NCBI GenBank assembly: GCA_900095095.1
Contig: FMBT01000025.1
Location: 1-28,094, forward strand
Direction: 5' to 3'
Origin: Fragilariopsis cylindrus CCMP1102
Taxonomy: Eukaryota > Bacillariophyta > Bacillariophyceae > Bacillariales > Bacillariaceae
DNA: 28,094 nt
Below are positions 730-24,999 of the stretch, one piece after another. Each line of letters begins with the position of its first letter. The first letter of the stretch is position 1. The translations under genes were made by a program, and so were the position numbers. Under the pieces are notes generated by a model that was not told the origin of the DNA, made no database searches, and saw only the letters and a program-made list of their open reading frames with translations.

Positions 730-3227
730 ATGGAGAAGGAAGAGGCGGAGGCCTCAGCATCAGCATCAGCAACTGCTGCTATCAGCGGAGCGAAGCAGGG
801 CGAGTGCGGGGAGAAAGCTGCTGATGCTGGTTCTTCTCCTAAAAGCAAAAGGCAGAAGATAGGAAAGAAAGAAACGAAGACAAAGACTACCAGAAAAGAA
901 AAAGAAGTGAAGGAAGACATGGCCTGGATTTGTGCTGAGTGCAAAGAAGCCGAATGTGGTTTGGTCCTGCAAAGTGATAAGAAAGACAACTCTACAACTA
1001 CTTTGACCGAAACCATAATTACTCCTTCCACCGATAACGATACTTCTGCTGATTTTTTGATTTGTGACGGCTCTTGTCACCGTATCTTCCACTTACCCTG
1101 CGCAGGTTTGACAAAGGAACCACCCACGGATGATGATTGGTTATGCCAAGATTGCTTGAAAACTGAGCACGCATGTGCCTACTGTGGCGAATACGGGAAG
1201 GACAACGTCAATGTCTTTCCTTGTCAACACGATCAGTGCGGCTTGTTCTTCCATGAGGCGTGCCTAGGATTTCATCATGTCGACTATACGTACTCGGATG
1301 ATCCTTCTCCTGTTTTATCCAACAATCTTGAGAATGATCAGTGCACCAAATGTCCTACCGGTAGTGGCTCTACAGAAATGGCAAATTCGATGGTCGGGCA
1401 GAATGACAAGATCTTCAGTGATAACGATGATGAAGATGAACAGGATGAAGAGTCTCGTATTCCCATCTTCACTTGCCACGCACATTGCTGCTGGACATGT
1501 ACACAGAAGGATATGATTCAACTTGAAAAAGATGAAAAAGCATTAGTCGACCAAAATCAAAAAGCTGACAACAAAAAGAAAACGAAGTCGTCTCGGAAGA
1601 AAAAAAAGAAGACATCTATCTTCCAAACAAAAGGGGGAAGACTCTACGTAAGTTAGAAAAGATCATAAAGGGATGTTGTATTGTTATTCTCTTCCCAATT
1701 AAAAATATCTGTGATACTCATTTATCTCTTTTTCTTTTATTCTTTCCGCAGAGATGTCTATACTGCCCAACAGCTTATCATGCAACATGTATCCCACCCA
1801 GTGCACGCTTTCATGAACTGGCTGTCCTTTGTCATGAACATTCGATGATACACAAACTGCCTGAGCTCGATATTAATAATTCTTTCCAGAAAAAGGTTGA
1901 GAACAAAGTTGAAAAAACTCTAATGAGACTTCATGGTTGCAACCGTCCAAAAGCGAATGAAGGTAAACATGGAAATGCATGGTCACGCATGTACGGTCGT
2001 CGAGGCCTGTCGACTAATCCGTTCTTCCCAGGCCTACGAGGCGATCGATTCGATTCGACTGAACAATCTATGGTATCATACATTAAGGATGAAACTATGC
2101 AGCAACAAAACCAACACCAACAACATCATCAGCAACAACCACACGAGAACTCGTCCCTGATGGTTGTAAAGCCCTCAAGCACGATGTCCATGGTATTGGA
2201 TGGTAGCGTACCCTTTTTATTACCAATGGATATCAAGAATGAAGTGTACTCGAAACCGCCATCTTATACACACATTCAAGGGAATAAATTTGGTGATGAT
2301 CCAAACAATCGGCCGAAAAAGATTCCTGTTGCCCGTTACGAAGACCAAGAAAAGTGCGCATGCACTGGGTCATATTGTGGAGAGGATTGTTTCAATCGCA
2401 TAATAATGGCAGAGTGTATTGGATCAAGTAATTGCAACCTTGGTCATAAAAACTGCGGAAATCGAGCTCTGGGAAAGCGGCTATCGGTTAAGTGCCAGCC
2501 AAAACGAGACAGAGGCATGGGATGGGGATTGGTAACTCTTGAATCCGTCGCCAAAAACAGGCTGGTACAAGAATATGTGGGAGAAGTCATCGACGAAAAG
2601 GAAAAAGAAAGTCGATTACATTTATGGAATATTGAGCATCCGTATGATCATGACTTTTACGTTATGGCTTTATCAAGGGGATTTTACGTCGATGCCCGTG
2701 AATTTGCAAACTATAGCCGCTTTATTAATCACTCTTGTGCACCCAACTGCAAACTGGTGAGTGTCAACGTCAAAGGTCGTTTGCGCAATGGTATATACAG
2801 TATACGAGATATTCAGGCTGGAGAGTTCTTAACTTATGACTATAATTTCGATACAAAACAGGAGGATCGATTTGTTTGTCGTTGTGGAGCAAAAAATTGT
2901 CGTGGAACTATGAAGGGAGGAGGTGGGAAGGGAGACAACGAAACGAAAAAAGTTGCAACATGGAAGGAAATTAGGGCTCATTATGAAGCTGACAAGACTT
3001 TCTTGACAGAAATGAAAGGAAAGGATGTTGTGAGATTAAATAATGGTTTGTTACCGGGTGCCGAAGATCCCACAGAAACAATAGTCAGAGGTCCTCTTGT
3101 AAAGCATTATCAAGCGGCTATTCAAAGCAAGATTTTTCTGTGGAGAAATGTTAAACTGGGTGCAAACTTTGTGTCTCGTAACTCAAGACTCACAGGTGTT
3201 CCAGTTGCGGCTAGTATCAAAAAATAG
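730..3227 (+). CDS. PHD-finger and SET-domain histone lysine methyltransferase (NSD/ASH1/SETD2-like)
   Basis: Two exons, 730-1647 and 1752-3227, joined in phase 0 across a 104-bp GT-AG intron (donor GTAAGT, acceptor CCGCAG); predicted protein 797 aa. The start at 730 is the first ATG and opens into an acidic, Ala/Lys-rich N-terminus. A PHD finger begins near residue 66 (WICAEC, then LICDGSCHRIFHLPC and WLCQDC). A second Cys/His-rich PHD-like region follows (HACAYCGEYG, FHEACLGF) and finishes in exon 2 with RCLYCPTAYHATC and CHEH, as in NSD-type proteins. A Gln/His tract lies near residue 420. The AWS zinc cluster starts near 508 (CACTGSYC...CGNRAL). The SET core follows, with RGMGWGL, the catalytic/cofactor motif FINHSCAPNC near 632 and GEFLTYDYNF, then the post-SET CRCGAKNCRG. 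This order is typical of nuclear H3K36 methyltransferases, which transfer methyl groups from S-adenosylmethionine; the exact target lysine is inferred. It converges with the eIF4B-like gene. Confidence 0.93.
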
Positions 3228-3276
3228 ACATAGTAGAATATTACGTCTAATCTTTTCTTTTACTATATATTAAAAG

Positions 3277-3282
3277 AATAAA
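3277..3282 (+). terminator. Candidate polyadenylation signal AATAAA of the SET-domain gene
   Basis: An AATAAA hexamer lies about 50 bp after the SET-gene stop codon, in AT-rich DNA shared by two convergent 3' ends. Position is the only support. Confidence 0.35.
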
Positions 3283-3541
3283 TTCTAAATAATAAGTAAA
3301 TGATATGTAAATTGCATTTATTTGATAACGATGTACAGCTTTTTCTTTAGTTGTAATTTTTCTTGATCTTTTTTCTTCTTCTCTAGAGGGTAAGTGCACG
3401 TACTGCACCATATGATCTGAACAATGACGAAAGCAAAGCTGATAAGTTCTCAAGTAATAATGGAAGATATTTCCTTTTTATCTTGCTTGTCTTACTAGAA
3501 ATCGTTCCATTTTTTCCTTCCTCAATACCAGCCAGAACTAA

Positions 3542-5075
3542 CTAATCCGAGTCAGAATCCATCAATAGAGCAAATCCGTTACTAGGGGCTTTGGTTTTGA
3601 TTTCTTTCTTCGGTTCAGCCTGCGGTCCCGTTTTGGCAATACCAGACGTCTTAGAAGTTAGATTATTAGTACTATCAGCTGCAGCTGCAGCTGCAGCCTT
3701 TTCTTCGGTTGAAGGTTGCTGCCGCCGTTTGTCTTGCTTTTTATCCTGTTGTGATTGCCGTCGTCCAGAACCTCCCTTTTGATTGCGCTTATTGGGATCA
3801 CCCTTATCGTTATTGATGCGTCCACCACTATTGCTACCACGACCTCCTCCTCGAGCCTTTCCATTTCCACCACGTCCTCCTCCTCGACCACTTTGACGCC
3901 GTTCAGGATGATTCGAGGTAGATGTTTTATTAACAACTTTTGTTTTGTTTGTGGTTACAGGATCTATTGACATAGCAGCAGTAGCAGTGACACTAGAGTC
4001 TTTCGTGACCCAGCCATCTGCTTTCTTATTATCTTCTTTATTATCAATATTTCCCGTGGTTTTGCTGTCATCACCAGCCCCACCAGCCCCACCAGTAACG
4101 CCAGATGATTGTTTGTGATTGTCTTCCTTCTTGGTTTTATTATCATCGTCCGGAACTTTAGAATTAGTAGTTATACTGTCGGTTTTATCAGCCACGGCGA
4201 CTGTCTTTTCCTGCTGCTGCACCTCTTTAGTTTTCACTGAAGCACGTCGATTTTCTTCCCACGCCTGTTCGTCTCGTGCCTTAGCACCTCCAAAAATATT
4301 CGACGACGTCGATGTACGTGCTCCATCGACGGGTTTACTGCGTTTTGCTAACATCAAGCTGGGTCGTTTCGGAGGTTCAGAAGGTGGACCACCCTTGCTA
4401 GTATTTTTGGCATCGTATTGTTTGCGAGAAAACGATCCTCCTCTCTCCCTAGGATCATTACTTTGTCTATCATTAAAATTCGTGTTATTGCCGCGGAAAC
4501 TGTTGTTTCGTTGGCTATTGGTATTGTCATTATTGTTACTGCTGCTGCTGTTGTTGTTATTATTATTATTGTTATTAAATTTTCCTCCTCGAAATTTCGA
4601 CCCATCAATTTCACCAAACCTGCTGTTGTTATTCTTCTCTCCAGTTTGTGAACGATTGAAGGATCCTCGGTTATTATTATTGTTGTTGTTGTTTTGTTGA
4701 GATCCTCCTCCCCGATTATTTTGTCGGTTTTGATGGTTTGCTGTATCGACCTGGATTTTTCGTCCCGCTAACATTGCTTGTGCGTCATCGTTTAGTTTCA
4801 TCACAATTTTGAGCTGAACGACAGGTGGAAAAAAGTTAAGTGGGGGGTGGGAGGGGGGTGGAAAAAAAAAAGTTAATACCGGTATATCATTCAATAAGCA
4901 TAGATTTAAGAATATGTTTTGGATACTTTCATATAAGACAATGACGTGATGCATATGAATCTTAATTTCTATCTTTCTCTCTCTCTACATATACACAAAT
5001 AATTGCGATAAATGATGATATATCTTAATGAATGCGAATGCAAACAAAACATTTTTATTGTGGTTACGTTTCGTT

Positions 5076-5110
<35 letters not shown>

Positions 5111-5510
5111 ACTCACTCACCTCTTCTAGAGTTTCCAATTCAACATAACCAAAACCACGATGATTTCTGTTGTCGCTGTTTCGTTCGTAACAAATTTTTG
5201 CCCCTATGATATTAATTTTTTCCTTGAGACGATCATGGACGACATCCACTAGAGCTTGTTGAAGATGAGAAACTTCAGAGATTTCGTATGACAAATTACC
5301 CACGAATGCATTAAATGGAGCTTGATTGGGATAGTCGTATTCTCGAATACCTGGACCTCCTGAGTTGTTGAGAGGGTTTTCACCATCATTATTGATTTGT
5401 AACTTCTCTAAAGCGGTAGGCTCCAAGGTTTCTTGCTCCTCCTCCTCCTCTGCTGCGTCATCAGAAGAATAATCTTCCTCGTCACTCGAACAGTCTGCCC
5501 AGCTTTTCAT
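3542..5510 (-). CDS. EIF4B: eIF4B/eIF4H-like RRM translation initiation factor
   Basis: Exon 1 is 5121-5510 and exon 2 is 3542-4813 (minus strand), joined in phase 0 across a 307-bp intron (donor GTGAGT; acceptor CGTTCAG after a long pyrimidine tract); 553 aa. The N-terminus is acidic (MKSWADCSSDEEDYSS, then an E run). One RRM spans roughly residues 68-150: RNP2 is AFVGNLSYEI and RNP1 is RGFGYVELETL, with the domain split by the intron and finishing MLAGRKIQVDTA. The rest is low complexity: Asn runs and Arg/Gly repeats. Near residues 281-313 come KRPSLMLAKRSKP and SNIFGGAKARDEQAWEE, which resemble the RPKLxLxPR and (S/A)IFGGAxPR motifs of eIF4B. The protein ends LLMDSDSD. Known role of the family: stimulating eIF4A helicase and mRNA recruitment in the cytosol. 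A different RGG-rich RRM protein is possible, but the IFGGA motif favours eIF4B. Confidence 0.85.
5077..5106. repeat. (CA)n dinucleotide microsatellite inside the eIF4B-like intron
   Basis: An uninterrupted CA run of about 15 units (GT on the gene's strand) begins about 14 bases inside the intron, almost touching the splice donor of the eIF4B-like gene. Confidence 0.9.
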
Positions 5511-7681
<2,171 letters not shown>

Positions 7682-9785
7682 ATGTAAAATTCAAATATGT
7701 TATGTTCTGTATAATGAACTTTATTTTACCTTTCAGCCATTCAGTGATTTGGTTGCTTTTTCTAGCTAGTATTATAAAAATTACCTGTCTTCTTTTCACC
7801 CCAGGCCAAACTAGCATATTTTAGGTTGAACAAACTCTGCTGCTTGTAGACGAGTTTGGTTTTTTCTCATGTCCCAGTCAGAAGGCTAAGTGCATCCCTC
7901 TTAATGGTACTAGCTGTACACTGATTTTCGCACGAGTATAACGGGTCTAAGTTTTGTACCTACATTACTACAAAACTAAACACTTTGACATACTTTAGCT
8001 TCTTTTTGACAGACGGACTGAATACGACTCCTGTCCACCATTCAGTTACTGCTAGCCGAGTACTTCTTTAAAAGAGAGTAAAAAAACAAAATCCAACAAA
8101 CAAAATATTAGTTATTCATCGATCGATCGACGAGTGAAGTTACGCATAAAAACAGAAACATCATGACTCTTTAACAGCGGCCATATCCGCATATCGGATG
8201 AAACAGCAAACTATACTGAGGTTTCTGCATCAAAAATTACCATGAGTATCAAGATACATGTCTGAGAAAGCAAAGGAGAGGAAAGGTGAGTTTCGATTCT
8301 TACATGAACAAATGACGATATGTGTTGTTTTCCGTGCATCTATTTTTTAAATGATGAGATAATACACTCCCACTATTTCACGACGGTCTTTTGAGATCTT
8401 GAAGCGAAACGAAACATAATTATTCCTTTTCCAAAATGGAGATTGATATTATTTTCATCGTGGATAGAGTGATATCACTGGAGATTATAAAAACCTGAAA
8501 AAAAATAAAGATGAAGAAAAAATAACACACGAATGCTCGTTAGGATACTAGGAGGATACCTTATTCCAGATGAAGATCCAACATTATATTTATATATCAC
8601 ACAATTCTGACACCTCTAATGCTAGCTCGGAAGCGATTCCGGACGATGATCTGAAATGTGAATCTGATGGCCTAAGGAAGAATCCCTAGTCCCCTATCCT
8701 AATGTTATGCTTGCTTCAATGGTATTTTTGAAGTACATCGTGTATTCCTTTTATCTAAACCTATGTCACTTTTCGTTTCCATCTCTTGTTTATATTAGGG
8801 TATTTATCTTCGGTACGATGATGAATATGATATTTCAATAACATTATCAAGATGATGAACTTCACCGAGCTTATGCTACTAGCATAAGTCACGAGGCCGC
8901 AAGCATGAGGCACTACGTATCACGGTACTAATTCATGGTACTTGCAAATAAAACTGAAGGTAACCCTTTTGAAGTTGTTGCATGAAGTTCTCTGTACAGA
9001 GGTGTGATAATACGCAAGGAACAATCGAATGTCCCGCGACTGTAATAAGGTACCATTTAGCTACTTAACTAGCCCACTATATCTCCAAGTACTGTAATTT
9101 GAGCGGCAGCATCTTCACTGTTACCGCAGTACTGGTACTTATTGTGCGGTCTGACATGTATGGATACGGTCTGGTCATTGCCCAGAATATAGGTGCGTTG
9201 ATTACGGTTTTCGATTTGAGAAGCATACGACAAAAAATAGATTTGGCTAATAAAATAAATAAATTTATGCATAATACCGACACAAACAGTGACACTAAAC
9301 TTTAAACACTGTAGATACTGGGTACAATTGTTGATGACCTCGACCTGGTTTTGAACAGATAGAAGCTTTATTTTAGTCTTTTTTCATATCATTGTACACA
9401 TCTTGATTTTTATATCACCTCATCTTAAAATAACGAGTAAAACGTAACTTCGCATTTTCTAATTCGATCCCTTTTATTAATAACTAGTGTTTAAAAGTAT
9501 ACGATGTTAGCTTTCTGTAGATGTTCTTATGGTGGTGCGTGCATAAGAGAGTTAAAACGCATCGTTGTTGTCGTCGATACAAATTTTAATAGCCGTCGGT
9601 ACGAGTTCACCAAGAGCGAGAGATTTTCCGTGTGTTACATTTAGAAATAATTTCATTTTTTAATTCTCTTAATACCTGAAATCACTTCACTCTACTATAT
9701 AGTAGTATGTTACCGTAACAAATTGGCACAAATACCCTAATATCATTTGTCGATTTCGATTGATTGATTCCTTTTTGTTATTTAT
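7682..9785. other. 2.1-kb stretch without a recognisable gene
   Basis: The largest gap in the window, between the 3' ends of GMD and the PIG-F-like gene. It holds the two 3' UTRs and otherwise AT-rich DNA with short open frames (for example about 68 codons on either strand around 9070-9305) that resemble nothing I know. I found no tRNA or spliceosomal snRNA signature. A perfect 19-bp inverted repeat lies at 8870-8888. Confidence 0.5.
8870..8888. repeat. Perfect inverted repeat, 9-bp arms
   Basis: CTTATGCTA, one central C, then TAGCATAAG: both arms match exactly. The single-base spacer makes it more like a dimer-binding site than an RNA hairpin. It is in gene-free DNA, about 1.2 kb after the GMD stop codon. 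Confidence 0.8.
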
Positions 9786-10484
9786 TTATTTCGCATCTTT
9801 CTTCTTGTTCTTGAAATACGAAAGAGTGATCCCAAGAATCGAACCGAAGATAAATCCGTATGTTCCACCAATCAAAACAGGAACAGGCCATCGTTGGAGT
9901 TGAGAACCATGATCAAGTATAGACAAAATACTAAATGGGATGATAAATGCAAGAGTGCAGTACAAACGACTGGTTGTCATTATCTCAGATTGATCGAAGA
10001 ACGGTAATTCTTCCAAAATGTTCGATGATCTTTTTTCCGTTAAATTTGTACAAATTAATGCCGAAAGAAACAGAGCCGCTGATAACGAATGTTGCCAATT
10101 CTCGACTAAATGATTTCCACACAAAGCAAATAAAACATAAGTAAACCCAGTAACTTTGATGAAACTCAATATTTTCCATATAACTGTAGACGGATTGCTG
10201 ACTGTCCAACATACCAATAAAGTCATTACTGGTAACAAAGAAAAGATTGACACCTGTACCAAAGGGAATGGCATACCAATAATCTCTGATGGATCCATAT
10301 GTTGCTATTGCAGTAGTAAGATGAAAGATAGAGAAAAAGTCACAGACCAACCAATGAGAAAGGAATGAATGAATGAAAAAAAAAAAGAATCAATCGGTAA
10401 GAAATATGGATGTGATGTGTCATCTAAATTGTTACTTATCATTCTGAAAAAGGAGAACACCATCGGCATCGGCATCGGCATCGT

Positions 10485-10516
<32 letters not shown>

Positions 10517-10700
10517 TTAAAAACAGACTGATACCATCAGCTGAAAAATTTACCGTACATACCATTTCAATTCCAATATCACCGGAGGGTCTCAAGATCA
10601 TGATTTCAAACCAACCAAGAAGTAAACAAAACGAAATAATCGAACCAAAGTTTCGCATGAGACGTTGCGCCTTCTCGTCAGTATACACATAACCACCCAT
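9786..10700 (-). CDS. PIGF: PIG-F-like GPI-anchor biosynthesis membrane protein
   Basis: Exon 1 is 10563-10700 and exon 2 is 9786-10304, joined in phase 0 over a 258-bp intron (donor GTATGT, acceptor TGCAATAG). The result is 218 aa, essentially the length of human PIG-F (about 219). The protein is strongly hydrophobic, with several predicted membrane helices (for example IISFCLLLGWFEIMIL, FSLLPVMTLLVCW, LSAALFLSALICT). Family-like features are the central YVLFALCGNHLVENWQHSL segment and the C-terminal pattern LDHGSQLQRWPVPVLIGG followed by a glycine-rich last helix and a basic tail (KNKKKDAK). PIG-F is an ER membrane partner of PIG-O/PIG-G that helps add ethanolamine phosphate to GPI precursors. 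Sequence similarity is moderate, so this rests on length, topology and the C-terminal motif. It is divergent with pyruvate kinase. Confidence 0.72.
10461..10515. repeat. Two adjoining hexanucleotide repeats in the PIG-F-like intron
   Basis: On the plus strand, about four CATCGG/CATCGT units run straight into about five or six CAACGA units. All lie inside the intron of the PIG-F-like gene. The two repeat types share the spaced pattern CA-CG-, suggesting one arose from the other. Confidence 0.8.
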
Positions 10701-11168
10701 GATCGCTTATATTGTAATCTTATTCTACAGTATTAACGAGAAAGAAATTCCGTCTTGGTCGCAGTACAACAGTAGATTTTTAGAAAATGTAAGCTGTAGC
10801 TTTTCAAATACTACGAAGCAGTTTTGTTGTCGGTAAGTTATTGTTAAAAATTTGAATTTTAAAAGTTTTAGAGGGCAGACTATTCCCTTCAAGTAAGCAC
10901 GACTGAAAATAAATCAAACTACCGGGTGTTTTCGGCATTATCGATCATATTTTTTAACGGTGTTTTTCGCACGCTACTACGACTTGTACTCCTCTACTGT
11001 ATGTCAAAAATACAGTGAGGATACCGATCGATGTGTGCGTGGAACGCGTCTTTCGATCTTATTCGCATTGCATGTAATAATATCTTCTTCTCACTGTTTT
11101 CCAATTGAATTCATCAAACAAAGCAGTCATACTAATATAACTAGTACAATACTATTCAACATTTCATC
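10701..11168. promoter_or_regulatory. Bidirectional promoter between PIG-F-like (-) and pyruvate kinase (+)
   Basis: 468 bp separates the two divergent start codons. It is AT-rich with no CCAAT or TATA element I would insist on. Placement only. Confidence 0.5.
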
Positions 11169-13213
11169 ATGGACGGCGAAAACATCGGTCTTGACCTCGT
11201 GAAGGAGGAAATCAACACTCTCCATAGACAGACAAAAATTATTTGTACTATCGGACCGGCAAGTTGGGATGAGGAAGGGTATGTCGCGTCGTAACGGGTC
11301 GTTATCGTTATCGTTATCGTTATTTTGTATTTTACGTGTTGGTCGGTCTTATTTATCCACCTTCTCGCTTCTCTCTCACACATACATACTTACTCTCTCT
11401 CTCTCTCTCTCTCTCTTTTCCAAAACAAAAACAAAAAGTCTCGCTATACTTATGGACGCTGGTATGTTTATTTATGAATTAGTATTTCTTTTTCTTTTAA
11501 AGTTCTTTCATACACATGATATCCCTTATACTCACACTCATACTTGATGCCCGTTTGCTATGTTATCACTATTTGTTAAAAACTTAACTTATGGTAATCC
11601 CCCCCCTTACCGTACGTTAGGCATGAACGTTGCTCGGTTCAATTTTAGTCACGGAGACCACGCAACGCACCAAATGGTATTAGAAAGATTACGAAAGGTA
11701 GCGGAAGCTAAATCAAGAAATATTGCTGTTCTTTTAGACACCAAGGTATGTAGTTTTTTTTTAATTTTCCAAATTCTATAGGTCGTTCGAAAAGTATTCC
11801 TACATACCATCTTTGTGTTCGTATTTCCATCAAAACAAAAAAAATGAATATCCTCACGATTGGAATGTTTTATAATGTGCAACCAGGGTCCAGAGATTCG
11901 TTCTGGTTTCTTCGATAATAGTGTCATGACGAAATTAAACTTAGTCAAAGGACAGGAACTTATCATGACTAGTGATTACGATTATAAAGCCGTCGATGCA
12001 ACAAAACTAGCTGCTCATACAATAATTTGGCAACTGATGTTCAACCAGGACAACAAATTTTGTTAGCGGATGGATCATTAGTCTTAACTGTCCTGTCTTG
12101 TGACGTCCCAAATAAGGAAATTACGACACGTGTTGAAAACAATACTTCTATCGGAGAACGTAAAAATATGAATCTGCCTGGTGTGAAGGTCAATCTTCCA
12201 ACATTTACTGAAAAGGATGTTGATGATGTTGTTAATTTTGGTATCCGTCACGGAGTTGATTTTATCGCTGCCTCATTTGTTAGGACTGGAAATGATGTTC
12301 GTAATCTTCGTAAGCTCTTAGCCGATAATGGTGGTAGTCAAATCAAAATCATTTGTAAGATTGAAAACCAAGAGGGATTAGAAAACTACGACGATATTCT
12401 TGAAGAAACGGACGCGATTATGGTTGCTCGAGGTGATTTAGGATGGAAATTCCATCATCAAAAGTGTTTTTGGCGCAGAAATTTATGATCCGAAAAGCCA
12501 ACATCGCAGGTAAGCCTGTTATTACGGCGACACAGATGCTCGAGTCGATGATTACCAATCCCGTCCAACACGCGCTGAGTGCAGTGACGTAGCAAATGCC
12601 GTTTTTGATGGAACCGATGCCGTTATGTTGTCAGGAGAATCGGCAAACAGCCCGTATTTCGAACAGGCGTTACGATGATGAGTCGCACTGTTACTAATGG
12701 TGAAATCGCTCGCAACTACAATGTCTTGTATCAAGCCATTCGAAATTCAATTGTTGCTGAAAAAGGCCCGCTTTCGAAAGGAGAAAGTGTAGCGTCGAGC
12801 GCCGTTGCCGCGGTACTAGATATTGGAGCAAAATTGATTATTGTTCTAAGCGATACTGGAAAGTTAGCAGGGTACGTCTCCAAATTCAGACCTGCTGTTG
12901 CTTCACTAATGTTAACACCGGACGCAAGCATCGCCCGACAGGCACACGGATTGACATACGGGTGCCACTCGATACTTGTCGACAGCTTGGAAAATGCTGA
13001 AGAATTGATAGAAGAAACCATGTTTGAGCTTAGTCAGAGTAAAATGCTAAAGCAAGGCGACAAAATTATCTTTATGGCGGTCGAGCTGCATCTTTTAAAG
13101 AACGCATGATGATTACTACCCTAAACGAAGGCAAATCCCATGGTCGTTTTGTCAAAACTGGAGGTATGTTCTTCAATCGTGGCCACATTTTGGGCATTCA
13201 AGGAAAAAAATAA
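11169..13213 (+). CDS. PYK: Pyruvate kinase with five apparent -1 frameshifts in its last exon
   Basis: Exons 11169-11278, 11439-11461 (23 nt), 11621-11745 and 11887-13213; introns 160, 159 and 141 bp. The enzyme makes pyruvate and ATP from phosphoenolpyruvate and ADP. Family motifs in order: [71 protein letters not shown], the active-site KIEN ([17 protein letters not shown]), [45 protein letters not shown], and a C-terminus ending [10 protein letters not shown]. The last exon does not read through. One base is missing near each of 12010-12012, 12441-12443, 12560-12562, 12667-12669 and 13077-13080. Allowing five single-base gaps gives exactly 530 codons including stop (529 aa), the family's normal length. 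Read literally, translation stops at 12064-12066 after about 145 aa. No nonsense codons or damaged motifs occur inside the segments. Options are sequence/assembly error, recent pseudogene, or recoding/editing. Confidence 0.9.
11299..11324. repeat. (GTTATC)n hexamer repeat in pyruvate kinase intron 1
   Basis: Four near-perfect GTTATC units follow the first splice donor closely. The same intron also holds a CT run at about 11393-11416, which serves as the pyrimidine tract before the microexon. Confidence 0.75.
11393..11416. repeat. (CT)n microsatellite upstream of the pyruvate kinase microexon
   Basis: About 12 CT units lie about 20 bp before the acceptor of the 23-nt exon at 11439. On the transcribed strand this forms a strong polypyrimidine tract. 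Confidence 0.85.
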
Positions 13214-13731
13214 TTGATAGAAAGTGGACGTCCCCTGGCCCTGGAATATTGTAGTGGTAATTTTGTTGTAAAGATTTATTTAAGATATAAGTAATTTCGT
13301 CTATTATTATTTTTCATCTCAATTTAGTATCAATAATTGTAAAGAAGAGTAAACCCATGCAGGATACCATTCACAACTCCTCGTCTACCTATCTGTCTTG
13401 TGATCTTCCTCTATTTGATTTTCTATTTTCAATAAATGCAATGTATACATCATACATCATACATTGTATATTTAATACAAATGAAACTCTTCCTTAAATC
13501 AAGTAATCATATAAATATGCGCTGAAACGAAATGAACCATAAACTTGATTTTTATATATCTTATTCTTTTGTCCCTTATCTGGTCTATTTTAATAGAGAC
13601 GGACCGTGGATAAATTGAGAATAGACCGCCGATAAACCTTCATTCTACAGGACAGACTCTCTGATGCAATGAAAGATAAACTATGCATACAATTTGAATA
13701 GCGTAAATCGTAAACAAACGGTGGAATTTCT
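13214..13731. other. Shared 3' region of convergent pyruvate kinase and OSCA-like genes
   Basis: 518 bp of AT-rich DNA between two stop codons. An AATAAA at 13431-13436 is a candidate polyadenylation signal for pyruvate kinase, followed by a palindromic AT-rich stretch with ATACATCAT repeats. No gene is seen. Confidence 0.5.
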
Positions 13732-16700
13732 TTATTCATCTTTCATATCATCGTCCATACCGTTGGTGTCCACAAATTGGGAATGTAGTGATAATGTGTT
13801 ACCTCCTGAGAAACGATCTTCCGGAACAGAATAATCCATGTCTCCGATTGGAATTTGAAGCATGTTTGTTCCTATTACTCTACGAAATAATGCGCCGCGT
13901 TGAAAGCTAGCATTGTTTTGAGAGCGAGACGAGTTATAACTGTCAAGGGTAGAAGTCCGCTGACGTCCTGGTGCAACTGGAGAAGAGCCACTTGGATCAC
14001 GGGAATAATAAGAATCAGGAGGAAGTACATCGGTATTTAGGAATGGATCACTATCACTATCAATATCCTGGTCACGTTCTGTGGGTATAACCACTGAGAT
14101 TTTTCAAATGTGTGAAGATAAGAAGAGCAGTTAGTTTTCGACTTCTTAAAGAATTATAAATAAAACAATACCAATATCCTTACCAGCAGGTTCTGAAGTC
14201 AAAAAGTTATCTTCTGCATTTACACAGATAGGAACATAGCTGGCCTTGTGACAATCCACAAGCCATTTTCTGAAGCGTTCTCTTTCTGTCACCGATGTCT
14301 CATCCTCCATATTCCAGCCGTCAAGTTCACTCGTCTGTAGCAAAGCGGCATCATTATAGCTCTGCTCAAATGTATCTTTACAAACAGTTTTGAATGTCCA
14401 GGTTGGAATTATTGAAATCAAAGCAATGAATCCAACAAAATAAGCTCTCTTTATAAAAAAACTAAAGGTAAGGACAATCTATACAATATTTAAAAAGAAA
14501 AAAAGTTGATAAAAAGGAAAGGGTAAGAACGAAAACGAAAACGCAGCATAAACACGTCGGGCTAGCCATGTCTAATATCAGTCATTTCCTCTCTTACCTG
14601 TGCTACGATTACTGCGACCATCAGTATATCATGAAGAATAGGCCACCTCAATCCTCCTGCGTCAAAGGTAGGACGGTATACAAAAATGTGTGACCACTTC
14701 AGCATAGGAACGATGAATAGAAAGATCATCATGGAAAATGGAGCTACCATAGGACTGATAGGTGCAAATGCCACAACGCATAAAAAGATTATACCAACAT
14801 TCACATAGATTCTGTAGGGGACAACACCTCCAGGACCACTGTAGTAATTAAAAAAGAGGAGGAGGAGAGAGGGGGGGGGGGGGGGGGGTAAGCATAACTC
14901 ATCTTAAGAAAACACGAATAAAGAGAGCACGGAAAAGATTCAATCCGAAACTTACCCGCCAGCAGTCGCACGGGCACCACAATCCCATTTGAGTGCTGTG
15001 AAGAGAAAATTATTAAATTGCAAAAAGTACATGAACGGTAGAATCAAGAGATTTTGTGTTATAATCCAAATTGTCCAGGTCCATGATATCTGTGTTGGTA
15101 CACCATTCCCCAACTCGAATAAGATCTTTTGAGCTCTCAACAAGCTGACATCATTGGTTTCGAACGCATTGAGAATGAGAGTTGATAAAGTGGTAGAGCC
15201 AAAGGCCCAAACTAGCATGAACCACCAATAGTACGCTAGAGCATGGCGTTCCGCCTCTTGAACGCTAGTTGCTCCACTTCCAAAGTTAGCCAACGCTTTG
15301 AAGATTTGCGGGAGGATGGCAAAGAAAGTAGTCATAATCAACAGCCTTATCATTGATGAAAAAAATTGGGAAGAATCTGCAATAAAAAGAGATGAACCAG
15401 AAAATGCTTTCTGAATTTTATCTGGAGTGGTTTCACTAAATAAATAACTAAAGGGGTGTTAGATCGTTTATAAGAAAGAAAGACGAGCAAAGCTGGAACT
15501 AAATGAAAACATAACTTACACGAAGGGGACTGTCCACAGCACGGTGAACACAATCATGAAAACCACGAGTCTTGGTTTGGTTTTGAGGAAAAAGAAAGAA
15601 GAACAAATATGGGTTAACATTATCAGATATAAAATATATGACAACATTCAATACTTAACAACGAGAATGAAGAATGGGTAAAGACAAACCTACAATCTGT
15701 AACGGTAACGCTTCTGCTCCGATGGCAAAGTAACGGTGACGGGCTTGCAGCAGCCTCGGCAATCAAAGATGTTCCAGGGCACTGCATCCGCAAGTGGCGG
15801 AATTGGGATTTTATCAACTTCGCTCCAGCCTTCTAATCCAGATCCATCAGCTAGACATTGACGAGCGGCAATAGATGCCTGCCTAGACGTAAATGTTACA
15901 ACTGCATAAGATTCGGGTTTGATTATTCTCGACCAAATACCCGAGGGAATTGCATTCCCATCCACTCTTTTAGATGTGAACCCTTTTGAAGAAAGTGACA
16001 GAGGATTATACCACCTCCCTGAACTGAGCGTTCGCTTTCGAAGCTGTCCGCCTCTTTTGAACAAGTATTGCTCCCCCCCGACGAGCTTTTCTGCCTGCTC
16101 CCAGAGATACGAACTTGATGTGTTGCCCGGTTTTTCTTCTTCGTGAAAATTATCAGACATCGAAACTTCTTCTGGGTCTTCATCTACCTCCCCAAAATAG
16201 TCTTCTTCAATGTTCGAAGGATTTGAACGTAATTCTTGGACAGTATGAAATTGCGTCACTTCTTGTTTCTTATCCGCACGAATCTCAATGCGAGCCTGTC
16301 GAAGTTCTTCTATTGCAAGCTGGACTTCTTCTGCTGCTTCCTGCTCTAAATCTTCTAGAGTAATTACATCAGCCTTCAAAATCGCATATTCGTCGCAACC
16401 ATTTGGACCACAGGAAGCCGAACTTTCGAATTTGAAAAAGAAAAATATCAGAACGGGTGGCATGGAGATAATTTTAAAATCAATAATACAAGCCGATTTC
16501 TATACTAACCTTCGAGCAAACTCTCTATAATATACTGTCATTTGTTCGATATCATCATCAGGTAAAAACATTTCCATATTGGATTCTTCATTTGCTTCGG
16601 TCGCAGCAAGCATCCGAGATTTTTCTATGTCATTCCCTACGCATGCTTTTCTCGACCTACGCTTCATTGACAATTGAGAGTCATCATCATCATCAGTTGC

Positions 16701-18322
16701 ATGTTTCGAAACATCATCAGTTGTGTCAGAAATGGTGCCGTTATTTCTTCCTTCAGGTATAAACACTTCATTAGAAGAAACTTCATCAACAGTCTGTAGC
16801 TTTCCAAGACCTGCTAGTGAATGTTTTCCGTTACTTCGGAGAGTGTCTAGTTCTTTATCATGACCATCATCGTTGTTGCGTTGTTGGCTATCAACATCAC
16901 CATTTGTCAAATTCTGGCCTTCGTGTCGAAGCTTTTTAAGTCTTTGTCGAATAAATTTTAAACGTCTAACTTTGCTGGCACATCCGAACCATTTCTTCCA
17001 CGCCTGAGATAAACGCTTGACGTCTGGTAAAATCGTTAAAGCCGCAACTGAACTCGAGAATCCAGGTTGATTCGGAACCACCTTATCAAAAAAATCAATA
17101 GCTATCTGCAGTTGATGTCCAACATTAGAGTTACTGGCACATGTCATCGTGTCTAGTTGGACACCTGGTAGGCGGAACAGTACAGAGTAGAGACCAATGT
17201 TAGGGACGGTATCCCTTAGTTCGGGATGCGGAACAAAAACTGGTCGATCTTTGATGGTATCATCTTCCGGATAGTTAAGATTATCTAAACATTCTAGTTC
17301 CTCCTTCCGATTTTTGTAGTGATTAAACTCGAGATAATAGACACGTCTCAAAGCTAGGTTTTGAATCCATTCTTCCCATATCAATACTTCGATTTTGTCG
17401 GAATATTCGAATATAGATGAATACAGTAATGAAAGAAACAAAGATAATTCAGCACGGTAATTTAAAGTTTTACACTCTTACAAGTATTGGTTCCGCTCTA
17501 TCCCTTGGGATACAATGTATGTGATCTATTTCTACTTACCACAAGTATAGGTGTAAATAATGCAAGCAACGAATAAAGTTGCAATCATCCGCAGAGTGAT
17601 ATTAGTTGATTCTTTCCTGAAGGCGTCTGTGAACACAGATCTGCTGTACCAAGTGGAGTTGGGACTACTTGAGACAAGAATAGGTATATTTGCGTACGTC
17701 GTTTTTTGGTAAGCGTTCGATACCGTAGTGTTTATGCAAGTCTGACTCCCAATATCAAAGTCCTCATATGCTGCCGGGTTGCATTCTGCGGTGAAATTAA
17801 TTGGCAAAATTACACCAATGCACAAAATTGTGGCAAGGATCGAAACTTTCAAGCATAACACACAGAACTTAATCAATATAATTCCATCTAGATTACAGCG
17901 AAGTTTCCATCCTGACCATCCATTGTTTCGTGTGCCTGTCCCTTTGACACCTTCGAGCATTTCGGAATATGTTAGATTCAATGCCCATGGAATCCATCGC
18001 ACACAGTAAGGTCGTTGTTTGAGTTGGTTTTTTATGATCTGTTTATTGGTGGCAAAAAAATAATGATGAGGTTATAAACATTTGAGCATTCGCATTTGTA
18101 CCATATTGATAAATCTGCGCGTTGTAACCATCAATACTACGAGGTTCTTCAAAGTTAACGTAATGCACTTACCTGTATCGGCCTAGCGTATGACCGAGGT
18201 GCAAAGAGCCTATTCCAATCATAATGTACAGCAACCTCAAACATTGACATGGCAATAACAAAAAAGACAGATAGTATTGCAATTAATGAAAAAAGCAGCC
18301 GGAAAGCTGCCGCCGCTCCCTT
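13732..18322 (-). CDS. OSCA/CSC1-like (DUF221/TMEM63) mechanosensitive cation channel, N-terminal exon unresolved
   Basis: Minus-strand exons: 18173-18322, 17540-18038, 16510-17386, 15694-16422, 15520-15570, 14956-15435, 14598-14838, 14184-14478, 13732-14093. All are joined by GT-AG introns of 84-153 bp with consistent phases, giving at least 1,227 aa. The first helix (LLFSLIAILSVFFVIAMSMFEV) leads into WNRLFAPRSYARP and RWIPWAL...GVKGTGTR, the classic OSCA start. The large cytosolic part contains EEWIQNLALRRVYYLE, VPNQPGFSSSVAALTILPD, acidic disordered stretches and an RRM-like second half (AVVTFTSRQASIAARQCL, WNIFDCRGCC). Pore-side helices follow, then GGPGGVVPYRIYVN, FAPISPMVAPF and YRPTFDAGGLRWPILHDIL. 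The tail has DAALLQTSELDGW and a polar, disordered C-terminus. The family forms stretch- or osmotically gated cation channels in membranes. The exon at 18173-18322 opens after an acceptor (TAATATAG), with an in-frame stop just upstream, so a short first exon is missing from this model; the ATG at 18250 is a fallback start. Confidence 0.9.
14871..14888. repeat. Poly-G run of 18 in an OSCA-like intron
   Basis: Eighteen consecutive G on the plus strand. On the gene's strand it is a C run about 30 bp before the splice acceptor at 14839, so it sits in or next to the polypyrimidine tract. Confidence 0.9.
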
Positions 18323-19521
18323 CTATATTAGAAATTCCACTAGTAGTTATAGTTCCATTCATCTTTATGCAGATTTGATCGTCTTGTTTTCGAAGTGGAC
18401 TGCACAAACCCCATTGATTGTATTCAGTATTGATAGTATCATTTACAGAAACTTGACTTTTTTATATGTTTTTATGTAAATTGAAAATGCAGAAAAATAA
18501 TAAAAGCCTTCTCTCATTATTATTGTCTTCGCTCAGCGTGAATACTCAATACAAAGTAAGTTCACGCGACAAAAGCGTTTTTACAAGCAAGTTCACGTGA
18601 CAAAAGCGCTTTTAAAAACATAAGCATGGAGGGTCTGGGAAATCAGACACAAATTTGTGCATAATATATGGTAAGTAAGTAGATATAACCTTGATATTTA
18701 TTTTATAGTAAGCTGCCGTGTTACTCTATACCACTAAATGGCTAGTACATCATACAGTCAGCCCAACAACACTTTATTATTCTATCTTACTATTTGATCA
18801 TTTGTGCCATCTCGCCATATATATCAATCCTCATACCTACTGTGGTTCTCTTCTTTGTTTCACTATTATCATTCCGTCTTCTTATCACATGTTTTTGTCT
18901 TTATGTTTCATATTATTGCTTTTTGTACTCCTTAACTTGCCAAATTTTTCTGCATCTTATGTATCAATATATGCTTAACTGACAAGAAGTTTGAGAGCAC
19001 ACAACATACAACATGTTAAAATCATTGTTTCTCCAATATGTTTATCAAGTTGCTCAACACTAAAAGTGCCACATACCTGAAACTGTTTTGAGTGAGATTC
19101 AAATATTGCTTTGTAGTACATATTATGTATCAAGAATAAACCGAATCTATCATTCGTTTTTGGTTACTACCACCTACGGATGTCACGAAACAACATTACT
19201 AAGTCATTACTGCTTCTTTTAAGCAAAGCACAGGGTCTCTATCTCTACACCGTTTTAGCTAGAGTACTACAAGTAGTACAAAAAAGTTATTGATCATGTT
19301 TGGTATTTAAATTTTACATCAATACAGGCTATGAAATAGTGCCATGATCTTCTCTTCTCCACAAGATAAAGATACGAACAATTTTGATTGTCTTGATGTT
19401 TTTTCAAGCAAAAAAAGAGGGTATCATCCGTGCGTTGTAAAGACATTAATAACATTTATACAGTTTCTCTTCCCCGCACCCCCTACTACTACTTTCCAAT
19501 TCTACTTCGTTTGAAAGATAA
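18323..19521. other. Intergenic DNA upstream of the OSCA-like gene and downstream of NF-YB
   Basis: This 1.2-kb interval should contain the OSCA-like promoter and its missing first exon, most likely in the first 250 bp. Two near-identical direct repeats carrying CACGYG lie at 18558-18615. The rest is AT-rich with short hydrophobic open frames of no recognisable family, which I do not call genes. Confidence 0.45.
18558..18615. repeat. Tandem direct repeat with E-box/G-box-like core
   Basis: Two copies of about 27 bp starting at 18558 and 18589 (31-bp period) share AAGTTCACGYGACAAAAGCG and a T-rich end. Copy two holds the palindrome TCACGTGA; copy one has TCACGCGA. They lie about 240 bp upstream of the first recognised OSCA-like exon. 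Confidence 0.75.
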
Positions 19522-20419
19522 TTAAGATTTAGTTTGTCCAGCTACCCCGCCAGCATTAACATTAGCACTAGCTGCACTAGCATTAACTGCATTAGCAGCA
19601 TTAGCTGCACTAGCGGCAGCACTAGCTGCATTGGCACTAGCCCTTGCCGCCGCTTTGTCTGGTTTATCTCCACGAACTGCTTCTCTGTACTTGCTCAAAT
19701 ACAGTTTGAGAGGCTCAACGTACTTATCAAATCCAAGAGTTGACATTGCCCATAACAAGTCGTCTCCATTTATTGTTTTTCGTTTTTCCTGTAGGCATTT
19801 ATCGGATGCTTCCGATGTGATAAAGCTTATAAATTCCGATACGCATTCCTGTACTGTTTCTTTGGAATCCTTAGCGATTTTGGCATTTTCAGGTAACGTA
19901 TTCTTCATTATCCGAGCAATATTGGCTATTGGCAAATAACGGTCCTGGTGGATGAAAAGAAAAGATTTGGTATTTTGGTTTTTACATATAAAGAAGAAGA
20001 AAATTCAAAATGAGAGAATATCTTTTTGTTTTGCGACGCCATCACTTGCATATTCCCGCATATCGATAACAACATAAGCAGCAACTGAAGGGAAAGTGCT
20101 GACTTTTTCATCATGTAGACCAAAGACGAGACTGCATCCGATAGAACGTCGTCGACGAATTGATATTATAACTTGGGCAATAATAACCCTCCCATGTGAT
20201 ACGAAAACGGCATCGAGATTGCACCTGCACCCCCCACACAAGCGCTCCTCATATACTAGTAGTTAAACTCATAACAAAGATAATTGTCGCCGATAGAATA
20301 TACAAACAATTTTATTTATTTATTTTTGAACGTACCTGTTCTCTAATCTCTTCGTAATCATCCCCAGGAGAGATCTTAGCATCAGCTATTGCATCTGCAT
20401 TTGAAGGAAGGTCGGCCAT
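19522..20419 (-). CDS. NFYB: NF-YB (HAP3) subunit of the CCAAT-binding factor
   Basis: Exon 1 is 20336-20419 and exon 2 is 19522-19944, joined in phase 0 across a 391-bp intron (donor GTACGT, acceptor CACCAG); 168 aa. The histone-fold core starts at the exon junction ([17 protein letters not shown]) and continues [51 protein letters not shown] and [14 protein letters not shown]. This is the near-invariant NF-YB domain, which pairs with NF-YC and NF-YA in the nucleus to bind CCAAT promoters. The C-terminal 45 residues are a low-complexity Ala/Asn/Ser tail encoded by degenerate GCTAATGCW-type repeats. The start at 20419 ([10 protein letters not shown]) is the first ATG, giving a short acidic lead. 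NF-YA and NF-YC are not in this window. Confidence 0.96.
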
Positions 20420-21386
20420 TTTTTTCTTTTCTTTATAAATACGGTAGAGAAATGGGTTAAGATATGCGCTTTCGAACGAACACTATAATTTTTTGGGAAG
20501 GAGGAAGGTAGGAACAGTAGATGATACAAACAATGCAAACAGAATGTAATAAATAATCTCATGAATGTATCGAAAAACGAATCAATTGACACATTGCAGT
20601 AGTAGTCCTACGTACTATTACGCGTTAGAACTACATTCAATGATCTTTATCTTATGCTAATCACGTGAATGATTGAGTCAAAACGCGATTCGATGGCCAA
20701 AATTGTTCCGCGTGGAAGTCCTTCCGTCGTCGCGTACATATACATAATCTTCCGTCGTCGCGTACATATACATAATATGATGATATACTAATATCAACTG
20801 TATGCTACTAGATATCAAGAACCTATGTACTATGTATTATATAAGGAATAGATGTAAGCTATGTTAAAGGTAGAAGACACAGGTATGATAATGTTTGGAG
20901 ATATGAGGTATTCAGTAACTTCGCTGACTTCTCTATTCTCTTTTACTTTCTCTAAAAGTTGATGTGCTACTTTTACTCTATCAATTCAAGCACCAGCAAA
21001 CAAGGCCTCTGAAGTGAGCAGGTTCTATGATCGAAGAAAAAATATGCTTGATTACGGTGTTCATTATTCACTTTTTCGTAGTATATTAATCATCATCTCC
21101 AGACCATTTCAGACCAACTGCTCACGGTCAGTAAGAAATGTAATTGTTGGATGTCAGAGAGAATGATGGGGTTAGTTAAATTGCGCCGATTCCCATCAAA
21201 AATACACAGCAGTAAAGCGATGGGTAGTAGATAGTCAGACGATTGGTAAGCGGAGCCACCGTGATGAGTGACTCAGTCGAGCTATGTGTAGTAAGGTATT
21301 AAACGAGTAGATTTTTATCTTTTAAAGTAGTCAAATACTAAGCATCTATTGGCACCTTGAAAAAGAAAGATATTATAGAGAAAACA
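20420..21386. other. Intergenic DNA between NF-YB and KTI12
   Basis: About 970 bp holding the NF-YB promoter and the KTI12 3' end. Near the NF-YB start it has TCACGTGA (around 20662) and TGAGTCA. A perfect 11-bp palindrome TGAGTGACTCA (bZIP-like) is at 21265-21275. An exact 28-bp tandem duplication is at 20721-20776. No gene is recognised. Confidence 0.5.
20721..20776. repeat. Exact 28-bp tandem duplication
   Basis: Positions 20721-20748 and 20749-20776 are identical. Each copy begins CTTCCGTCGTCGCG and ends ACATATACATAAT. It lies about 300 bp upstream of the NF-YB start codon, so both copies are in its probable promoter. Confidence 0.95.
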
Positions 21387-22595
21387 TTATACATATTGTC
21401 GTGTAGACATCCCCTCTTTGAGATTATTCGTTTTCAGCAGAAATGTGTCAAGAATATCATCAAGCTGCTCCTCTAAAGGTTTATTACTACTGCTTGGCTG
21501 CTGCTGAGGTTGTGATGATGGTTGTTTGGGTGGTTTGGGTGTCGAAGTACCACAATCGGAGGATTCGTCTGCGTCTGATCTCATCATAATCTCATTTGAT
21601 GTCGGAATATGGTCTACAGTCGCCTTTTCTGATCCAATGATTGAATTCGACACTGGACAAGTACCGATGCTAGTAGGGATATCACCCCTATTGCATTCAT
21701 CATCCTCGCGGGCTACAATTTTCTTCTTATTTTTATCTGGAGGGGTTATTTTCTTCTTTCGCTGAAATGCAGATTTTTTAGGTGGTTTTGTTGTACGTGA
21801 TGTTGCTGGAGCAACTGAACTCTCAGTAGTCGTAGGTTGAAGATTGCTAAAAGCATCTCCAAGAGAATGCATATTGTAGACAGATTGTTCCAACACTTCA
21901 TTTCTGGTCGATATCTCATTTTTTATCGGCACCACTTCTTCGTCCTTGTTACTAGCTGGTAAAGCATCCGATCTAAGTGCTGCTGCTGCTGCTGCTACAT
22001 CTACAGTAAATAGTGGCTGATCCCAACGATTTCGACTGTCTGGCGGTTCGTATCGGGATATTAATTCTTGCAAGAGTTCAGTGGAGTAACGTTGCTGCTT
22101 ATTTTTCTTTTCAGGACTGTGCGAATTGCTGGTAGAACCTTCATTCCACTGCTGAACGACCGAACTGCGATTTAATACCCATAAAATACCGTGCTTTTCT
22201 CCCGCTGCCTTAGAGATACAGTGCAACTCGTATCTAAAACCCTTGATATAATTCAACGAGTCTAAAATAACTAGTCGTCGACTGTTGTTTTTGCTACTAC
22301 TTTTCTTTACGGCCCGATCAAAGCCAGATTTCAACGCTGCTCGTGTTTGTTTTTCAACAAATGAAGTCTCATATAATTCTTGCTTGGTGGCAACATTCTT
22401 ATTTTTCTCTGTGTTTGGAGTCTCGTCCTTATTATCGTTGCCGTCGTCATCGTTGAGACAACAACCGCATTCCGACTCTTCGTTCACTACGACGACCTCG
22501 TCGATATCGTCGTGCAATAGCGCTCTTTCTTTCAGCAGATATGCGAGGGTGGTCTTACCCGCTGAGGGGTGACCAGTAATAATGAGACAAGGCAT
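21387..22595 (-). CDS. KTI12: KTI12-like P-loop ATPase associated with Elongator
   Basis: Single exon, 402 aa, starting at the only sensible ATG (MPCLIITGHPSAGKTTLAYLL). The P-loop GHPSAGKTT is at residues 8-16. The second family block is RRLVILDSLNYIKGFRYELHC, followed by ILWVLNR (the Walker-B-like/strand region), LLQELISRYEPPDSRNRWDQPLFTVD, and a C-terminal helix EEQLDDILDTFLL ending in a polar tail. This matches KTI12, which regulates Elongator and hence the wobble-uridine modification of tRNA; the related PSTK kinase (selenocysteine synthesis) is the main alternative. It is longer than the usual 280-350 aa because of two polar inserts: an acidic one after the first strand (ECGCCLNDDDGNDNKDE) and a Lys/Pro/Ser-rich stretch around residues 240-370. 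No intron is needed. Confidence 0.88.
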   Translation of the reverse strand: MPCLIITGHPSAGKTTLAYLLKERALLHDDIDEVVVVNEESECGCCLNDDDGNDNKDETPNTEKNKNVATKQELYETSFVEKQTRAALKSGFDRAVKKSSSKNNSRRLVILDSLNYIKGFRYELHCISKAAGEKHGILWVLNRSSVVQQWNEGSTSNSHSPEKKNKQQRYSTELLQELISRYEPPDSRNRWDQPLFTVDVAAAAAALRSDALPASNKDEEVVPIKNEISTRNEVLEQSVYNMHSLGDAFSNLQPTTTESSVAPATSRTTKPPKKSAFQRKKKITPPDKNKKKIVAREDDECNRGDIPTSIGTCPVSNSIIGSEKATVDHIPTSNEIMMRSDADESSDCGTSTPKPPKQPSSQPQQQPSSSNKPLEEQLDDILDTFLLKTNNLKEGMSTRQYV

Positions 22596-23177
22596 TATTA
22601 GGCAATGGATTTATGTTGATTTTGTGATTTTGTGATCAATGCATGACGGATTATTACGGATGATACAATGTACAATTATTGTGTAGAGAGCAATTTCAAA
22701 TTACGATTGGGTTTTGATGAGTGGTTTGCGCAATTTTTTTTCGCAAAAACAGCAAATATTTATTTTAATTTCAATTTATAATACGGTACCAGTACTGGTA
22801 TCAAAGTAGGACTACATTTAAACATGTATTCAATAATCCTATTATACTATGTATTATTTCATAACTGTGTCATTATTATTTTCATTGCATGAAGTAGCTA
22901 GCTAGTCATAGGCAATATCCGAAAAATACACTGGTAGTGTGCTGACAAGGTCCAGCAGTCCTTGACTTTCAAAATAGGGTAAAAACATATACAAATATGC
23001 TGCTTCATCTTTCTAAATATGATACTAGATACTTTATCATTATTCTATTACTATGTTGACAAAAATCAGGTTGAATGAGAGGTCTTACTAAGGTTGTTAC
23101 TATTCAATTACAGTTGTGTGGTGTTATTTAAAGGTTAAAATTGCAAAGTTAAAACATACATTTTTCTGGTCATACAA
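22596..23177. other. Intergenic DNA, KTI12 promoter and P4H 3' region
   Basis: About 580 bp, AT-rich. It contains GGTACCAGTACTGGTATC, an imperfect palindrome around 22786-22803. No gene or RNA is recognised. Confidence 0.45.
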
Positions 23178-24999
23178 TTACTCCCCATCTTCTGATCTGA
23201 GTACAGTTAATGTGTTGAACGCATTGTGGGGGGTATCACCATCTACTCCATAACGCACCCATTGGGTAATAATCTTCTTTTCCCCTTCATAGACTGGACA
23301 ACCTGAATGCTGTGTGAGTCCATTATCAGTTTCATTTGTGTTTGGATCAATGTACGAAAAGAAGACAGCACTACCGGCGCTTGGTTTGACGTGAACATTA
23401 GCATTCTGGAAATTGGTAAATCCACCTTTAGCTGGAATCTTACAGTAAATAACCATTGTCGCCATCCGACCTCCATAAACATGATTTTCCCCTGTGCATC
23501 TGCCATCGCAATGTGGCGTGTATCTATCCGGTTCAATGTCATGTTTACCCCGTCCGAAATACTGAATACTCATGAGGGGTTCTTGCCCTTGATGTGAAAT
23601 GTCCATATCAAGAACACGATTGACGTATTCTGATGATTATCAATTTTAAAGTAAAGATTTGAAAATTGATCGTGTGAGTAAAATGATTGATCAAGGAAAC
23701 AGAAAAAATCAAACTCGAGAGAGAAGAAAAAGAGGAGCGAAAGGGAGGGCTCAACATACCGTAAACTCTGCCAGATAAAGTAGCTATCAAGTTGCCATCC
23801 AACGGTTCGCCCTCTGCTGTAAATGCAGGTTTTATACCCGCCTGCATAGCTGCATTAATAAATGATGCAAATGAGTAGATGATATTTGTGTGAGAGATTG
23901 GTGGCAAGAGACGAGACGACCAGTCGTGCAATGATTTTAAATTTTACCTTTGCGACCTAACGAAACCTTAGATCCACCCTTGCCATCGGCAGTCGATGCA
24001 ACGTGTAAATCTTTTTCTGCCTCAGTTTCCATAGACCCACATTCATCGGGACTTGCAAAGTTTTCAACAACGTGAATTCGACTTGCGGGACGGTCTAGCT
24101 TGACGTGTACGGTTCGCGTGACATTGTCTTTTGAAGACATCCAATCTTCTGTGATAACATCAGGACTAGATTCAAGACCAACATTGACACATGTGAAATT
24201 CTCGGCGATATTCGAAGCTTCCAATCGCAGAGTTCGTTCGAATTCCACTTCATCAATGGACGCTTTAATCCGTGGCGCTAATCCGACCGTAATACAATCG
24301 TGTAACTCATCGTTAATTTTTTGAATCATTTCTTCCTCGCCATCTATTTCTTGCAACAATTTAGTGGCTCGTTTTTTACATTCCGTCAAGGTTTTGATTG
24401 GATCTTCGACGACATCTAAGTCAATGTCATTGAGGAGTAAATTAGTTTTATCATCAGAAAGCGGTTTTACTGTTTCAATTTGAACCCCTTCTTTAATGAC
24501 AAAACCTGTTAATCGTGGTCGATAAACAAAAATACATGACATAATTTAGAGAATTACAAACAGTAGAAGCACAAGGGGATGAGATTAACATACAGAGCGG
24601 GATATTTTAGATTGCAGTGCATGTGATTTATCGATTTTGTTGTAAAGTAAATGACCATCAATCCTCACCTTGCTCGGGACCTTCTGTGGCTTGAAAGTAA
24701 TCGATGTTGCAATATTGATCGTCGGTTTTTTCTTTTTCTCCGTCACAAATACCCGTAACAGGATCAGGCAATTCCCACACTTCGAATCGATGCGTTAGAT
24801 ATGAATTAAAGTTAAAGATCAAATCAGGTTCGATGTCACCCTTGATGAGTGAGATAGCTTGGGTACTTGGATTGATCCAATAAATTGATATGTAGGTTCC
24901 GCTTTCATTAACGAACCGAAGCGTGACCTCTTGAATAACACCGACGACCGCAACAGCCAAATGAAGAAGAAAAAGACAAGATATCCAGAAAAATTTCAT
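23178..24999 (-). CDS. Secretory-pathway prolyl 4-hydroxylase with N-terminal VHL-like beta domain
   Basis: Minus-strand exons: 24669-24999, 23948-24505, 23760-23849, 23178-23629; introns 163, 98 and 130 bp, all phase 1; 476 aa. The start at 24999 gives a clear signal peptide (MKFFWISCLFLLHLAVAVVG). Residues about 22-100 (EVTLRFVNESGTYISIYWIN, then FNFNSYLTHRFEVWELPD) resemble the beta domain of VHL-type proteins. A helical acidic linker with a likely coiled coil follows. The 2-oxoglutarate/Fe(II) oxygenase starts near 260 (HVVENFASPDECGSMETEAE, then RKAMQAGIK). The metal ligands are His366 and Asp368 (PHCDG) and His434 (QHSGCPV), with a Lys near 444-445 as the probable 2-oxoglutarate anchor. 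The family hydroxylates peptidyl proline in the ER/Golgi; substrates here are unknown. The VHL-like assignment is weaker than the catalytic one. Exon 3 (90 nt) completes the conserved RVYEYVNRVL junction, which supports the splicing. Confidence 0.9.

Follow-up and report, generated by a model that had tools for sequence, protein, structure and literature searches.

Five frame breaks in a pyruvate kinase gene of Fragilariopsis cylindrus probably reflect consensus errors of a diploid PacBio assembly

A pyruvate kinase gene split over three frames

In the genome assembly of the diatom Fragilariopsis cylindrus CCMP1102, one pyruvate kinase gene is split over three reading frames, which raises the question of whether the gene is broken in the living cell, is repaired during its expression, or is merely misrepresented by the assembled sequence. 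The window (the whole stretch of DNA that was analyzed, 28,094 bases) is one entire contig, C355, of an assembly of 818 contigs and 67.9 Mb. The gene, assigned by its matches to the Pfam PK family and by its relatives, consists of short first exons, introns, and a long last exon. The family matches it in four separate places (11614 to 11745, 12000 to 12470, 12443 to 12565, and 12553 to 12669), and four pyruvate kinase pieces, with scores of 43.8 to 181 bits, exceed the curated cutoff of PF00224 (30).

An earlier note on this DNA had described six segments joined at five one-base junctions, and this was confirmed for the last exon, whose open pieces, six in all, alternate in frame and meet near 12011, 12442, 12561, 12669, and 13079, every jump being equivalent to one missing base. 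The accompanying claims also held: no stop lies inside any of the six pieces; comparison of the frames against the database protein P0002 (described below) shows that the pieces join without losing a residue; and the joined protein has 529 residues plus the stop, matching the 530 codons given before, with the short first exons spliced by eye. The features on which the argument depends are listed here, with C679 denoting the second contig that carries this locus.

11170..13213, plus strand: pyruvate kinase gene (short first exons, introns, long last exon at 11887 to 13213)
12011..12012, plus strand: frame break 1; C355 is one base short relative to C679, which reads through
12442..12443, plus strand: frame break 2; C355 is one base short relative to C679, which reads through
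12561..12562, plus strand: frame break 3; C355 is one base short relative to C679, which reads through
12669..12670, plus strand: frame break 4; shared with C679, whose sequence is the same at this place; P0002 is open
13078..13080, plus strand: frame break 5; shared with C679, whose sequence is the same at this place; P0002 is open
7657..12561, no strand: stretch diverging from C679 in the detailed contig alignment (putative haplotype bubble)
12562..18298, no strand: stretch letter-identical to C679 in the contig alignment, holding shared breaks 4 and 5

Other copies of the locus

DNA searches with window positions 11170 to 13250, 1 to 5000, and 23000 to 28094 showed that C355 is a second copy of part of C679, a contig of 769 kb, with 99% identity over 11170 to 13250. 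The two contigs agree letter for letter at 1 to 7656 (a CA repeat excepted), 12562 to 18298, and 18976 to 27610; over 1 to 7917 and 11027 to 28093, outside 7657 to 12561 and 18831 to 18975, there are only three differences: the CA repeat changes in length at 5077, and there is a one-base indel at each of 18299 and 27611. C679 stays in one frame across junctions 1 to 3. Breaks 4 and 5 are present in C679 too and lie in the stretch of 5.7 kb that holds no difference between the contigs. The search for a second, intact copy that the earlier note had proposed was thus successful in part: C679 was found and keeps the frame at breaks 1 to 3, but it shares the other two, and with neither contig open at breaks 4 and 5, there is no intact copy within the assembly.

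In the last 1.5 kb of the divergent stretch (11027 to 12561), C355 carries 11 one-base deletions and 1 one-base insertion relative to C679, an excess with a two-sided binomial P value of 0.006 if the 12 indels are treated as independent errors, although some of them resemble real variation. The deletions fall in introns and upstream sequence as well as in the exon. This bias is absent from a second patch of difference, 18831 to 18975, where the differences in C355 comprise one insertion of 52 bases, two of 2 bases, and one-base indels that divide into 4 deletions and 5 insertions. The breaks sit at or just past the edge of the stretch in which the contigs diverge, and the overall pattern is how a bubble of diverged haplotypes between homozygous flanks would look. 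C355 would then be an alternate-haplotype contig, as its small size and full containment in C679 suggest.

The same alignment revealed a stretch of about 1.7 kb, flanked by the genes for GDP-mannose dehydratase and PIG-F, that is inverted between the contigs (window positions 7948 to 9656 against 536345 to 534608 of C679, 93.5% identity). A blastn comparison of 7601 to 11200 against itself found no inverted repeat, and the inversion looks heterozygous between the haplotypes.

Confusion with a paralogue was rejected: the remaining DNA matches, on C499 and C392, are just 69% identical over 644 bases. No third close copy of the pyruvate kinase gene was found in the assembly by DNA search, which leaves C679 as the sole close match; a Pfam search located several further pyruvate kinase loci in the genome.

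The read-through protein was also searched against 5.8 billion proteins. One match, P0002 (480 residues, source "ena," from a contig of 1,718 bases, clustered with others to a total of 46 sequences), starts within what corresponds to the intron preceding this gene's last exon, is open from there to its end, and crosses all five junctions without a break. Compared with the six pieces (439 residues), it shows two residue differences in total: four pieces match exactly (142, 40, 36, and 44 residues), and two pieces hold one difference each (N/T in 41 residues and I/V in 136 residues). By back-translation, its intron part is equally distant from C355 and C679, at 5 edits each, and since it differs from both contigs, P0002 represents a third sequence. 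It probably comes from an environmental sample of the same species and would be independent of the assembly of this strain.

The intron part of P0002 also bears on the C355 deletions. C355 has four one-base deletions in that intron, and P0002 sides with C355 at two of them (11833 and 11838) and with C679 at the other two. The deletions at 11833 and 11838 therefore look like real variation, so that the one-base deletions of C355 would be partly natural and not all errors, and some of the differences between the contigs are probably not real variation.

The other relatives resemble an ordinary enzyme at the level of their sequences. P0001 (529 residues) is 88% identical to the read-through protein, and the 22 further relatives listed, P0003 to P0024, are 69 to 81% identical over 92 to 100% of it. 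Two of these are diatom pyruvate kinases with PF00224 and PF02887, P0001 (88%) and P0010 ("Pseud…," taxon identifier 697910, 77%), each covering 98 to 99% of the read-through protein; both Pfam domains are common to all three proteins, and unlike P0001 and P0010, the window copy is broken over three frames as assembled. Among the best 120 of 5,348 and the best 120 of 284 matches listed, most of them unnamed and the names truncated, no pyruvate kinase was named for F. cylindrus.

Frame jumps and accuracy across the assembly

Frame jumps in unrelated conserved genes were counted as neighboring matches to one protein family that change frame with no space for an intron between them. Matches on one contig and strand within a 5-kb limit were treated as one locus, and allelic copies were counted separately. 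To be registered, a break must fall within a domain and separate pieces that are each long enough for a score, so the counts are lower bounds; applied to the pyruvate kinase locus, the method recovered 2 of the 5 window breaks and neither of the 2 breaks of C679. Outside pyruvate kinase, jumps were found in 2 of 16 HSP70 loci, 3 of 16 Cpn60 loci, and 2 of 13 tRNA-synt_1 loci, at least 7 of 45 altogether. The elongation-factor family (66 rows) was left out of the count, as was the ice-binding family, of which 12 of 53 rows were entered and the result was not used. The profile matches placed the jumps on these contigs:

C481, C498, C655, C347, C451, C693, C70: contigs with frame jumps in conserved genes

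The direction of the frame change corresponds to a missing base in five of the seven and is the opposite in two (C693 and C70). In two of the seven, both with the missing-base direction, a sister contig has an open frame where the jump occurs (C221 for C498 and C159 for C481). Relative to C221, C498 carries three one-base deletions and one substitution over 3,294 alignment columns, which at the sequence level is the same signature as that of the pyruvate kinase locus. The C221 match contains four stops at residues 139 to 199 of 530, far from the jump, which probably fall in an intron. The C481/C159 pair differs by 43 substitutions and by one-base deletions and insertions in a ratio of 9 to 8; the deletion bias is absent, and this difference is real divergence. 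The ice-binding family (PF11999) itself has 53 matches in the genome, several of them as frame-changing fragments, and its presence fits a sea-ice diatom. One ice-binding frame of the genome matches FRACYDRAFT_161630, a partial protein of F. cylindrus CCMP1102 with 217 residues, at 100% identity over 62% of the query, in keeping with this strain as the source.

The published PacBio genome of strain CCMP1102 was assembled with FALCON and polished with Quiver, yielding 745 primary contigs (59.7 Mb) and 288 alternate contigs (9.1 Mb), and was described as having highly diverged haplotypes within an otherwise homozygous genome (PMC5634323). The 818-contig, 67.9-Mb assembly analyzed here, somewhat different in contig number and total size, is taken to be the same deposit. 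In Table 3 of that paper, 13 Sanger-finished fosmids differ from the assembly by 622 indels in 420,988 aligned bases (our sum over the table, some of the indels being haplotype differences), at rates of 0 to 4.63 per kb, and because the rate spans this range, the differences are patchy along the genome. Primary and alternate contigs were supplied separately as polishing references (PMC5634323), which fits the letter-identical flanks of C355 and C679. According to the available part of PMC8081667, consensus calling from CLR reads yields short indels and thereby frameshifts, and an allelic copy stayed unpolished, with frameshifts in TLK1.

Weighing the explanations

Taken together, we consider it very likely (probability of about 0.94) that all five breaks arose as consensus (base-calling) errors of the PacBio diploid assembly and not through biology. 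The reading follows from the duplication of C355 in C679 and from the open frames found at each break in another copy of the locus, in C679 at three of the five and in P0002 at all five, and it is strengthened by the 11-to-1 excess of deletions, the frame jumps in 7 of 45 loci, the fosmid indels, and the cases described in the accessible text of PMC8081667. In the homozygous flanks, both contigs would have been built on the same reads and would have kept the same residual errors, giving breaks 4 and 5; in the part specific to one haplotype, reduced coverage and the mixing of reads from two haplotypes during polishing may have left further one-base deletions, breaks 1 to 3. Several observations count against consensus error. 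Both contigs carry breaks 4 and 5, and an intact copy is absent from the assembly; the deletions at 11833 and 11838 have a natural look, the C693 and C70 jumps run in the opposite direction, and neither the C481/C159 pair nor the patch at 18831 to 18975 is biased toward deletions.

Local assembly error had been the first of the options left standing by the earlier note, and the C679 and P0002 evidence favors it. The poor fit of a uniform error rate, which was argued there, is real but lends no help to a stranger reading, because the accuracy of the assembly is itself uneven, with fosmid indel rates anywhere between 0 and 4.6 per kb, and because the breaks lie along the border of the region where the two haplotype contigs differ. 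That decay would leave mixed changes does count against a pseudogene, but it favors consensus errors equally. The absence of frameshifts from the nine other genes of the window is plausible and was partly checked, by Pfam searches of 20 open frames and by the comparison with C679.

A pseudogene was rejected, given the two residue differences from P0002 in 439 residues and the lack of stops within the pieces. A real but very young null allele, with one-base deletions of which two are homozygous and three lie on one haplotype while other pyruvate kinase genes compensate, would account for the presence of breaks 4 and 5 in C355 and C679 alike, and loss of the gene could be tolerated with several other pyruvate kinase loci in the genome. 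We nevertheless regard it as improbable, since it requires five deletions without further decay in a sequence so close to P0002, in a region where one-base deletions predominate in the neighboring introns and upstream sequence as well, in a genome where unrelated conserved genes also show frame jumps, and in an assembly whose fosmid indel counts (PMC5634323) are high enough to permit errors of this kind.

Correction during expression, whether by base-inserting RNA editing or by five −1 ribosomal frameshifts that yield a working enzyme, would need what is seen here, pieces that abut exactly and keep a conserved sequence. It would, however, be needless at three sites in C679 and at every site in P0002, and similar jumps occur in unrelated genes, two of which have an open sister contig. 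A scan of the last exon for slippery heptamers of the form XXXYYYZ found seven, none of them at a junction; the closest start 44, 37, 82, 190, and 15 bases from breaks 1 to 5, respectively, and programmed −1 ribosomal frameshifting was rejected on this ground. We therefore hold correction during expression to be extremely unlikely, and it is about as unlikely that the genomic sequence is correct, with the frame restored at the RNA or ribosome level at five sites here and at two on the other haplotype.

Consensus error would also place the locus among known cases. Long-read diploid assemblies and haplotigs (PMC5634323, Table 3, and the available text of PMC8081667) similarly contain short, patchy indels that break frames, and the latter source likewise describes an allelic pair of contigs with one copy less polished. 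Compared with those systems as far as they are described there, nothing at this locus differs in kind; it has several errors in one exon, two of them in a stretch common to both contigs.

Most likely, the pyruvate kinase gene is ordinary and intact in the living cell. Wherever a long-read assembly of a heterozygous organism is locally diploid, clusters of frameshifts should be expected in its alternate contigs, and an identical break in the sister contig is no validation, because both contigs can rest on the same reads. Claims of gene loss or recoding drawn from the present assembly require the reads or a Sanger version first.
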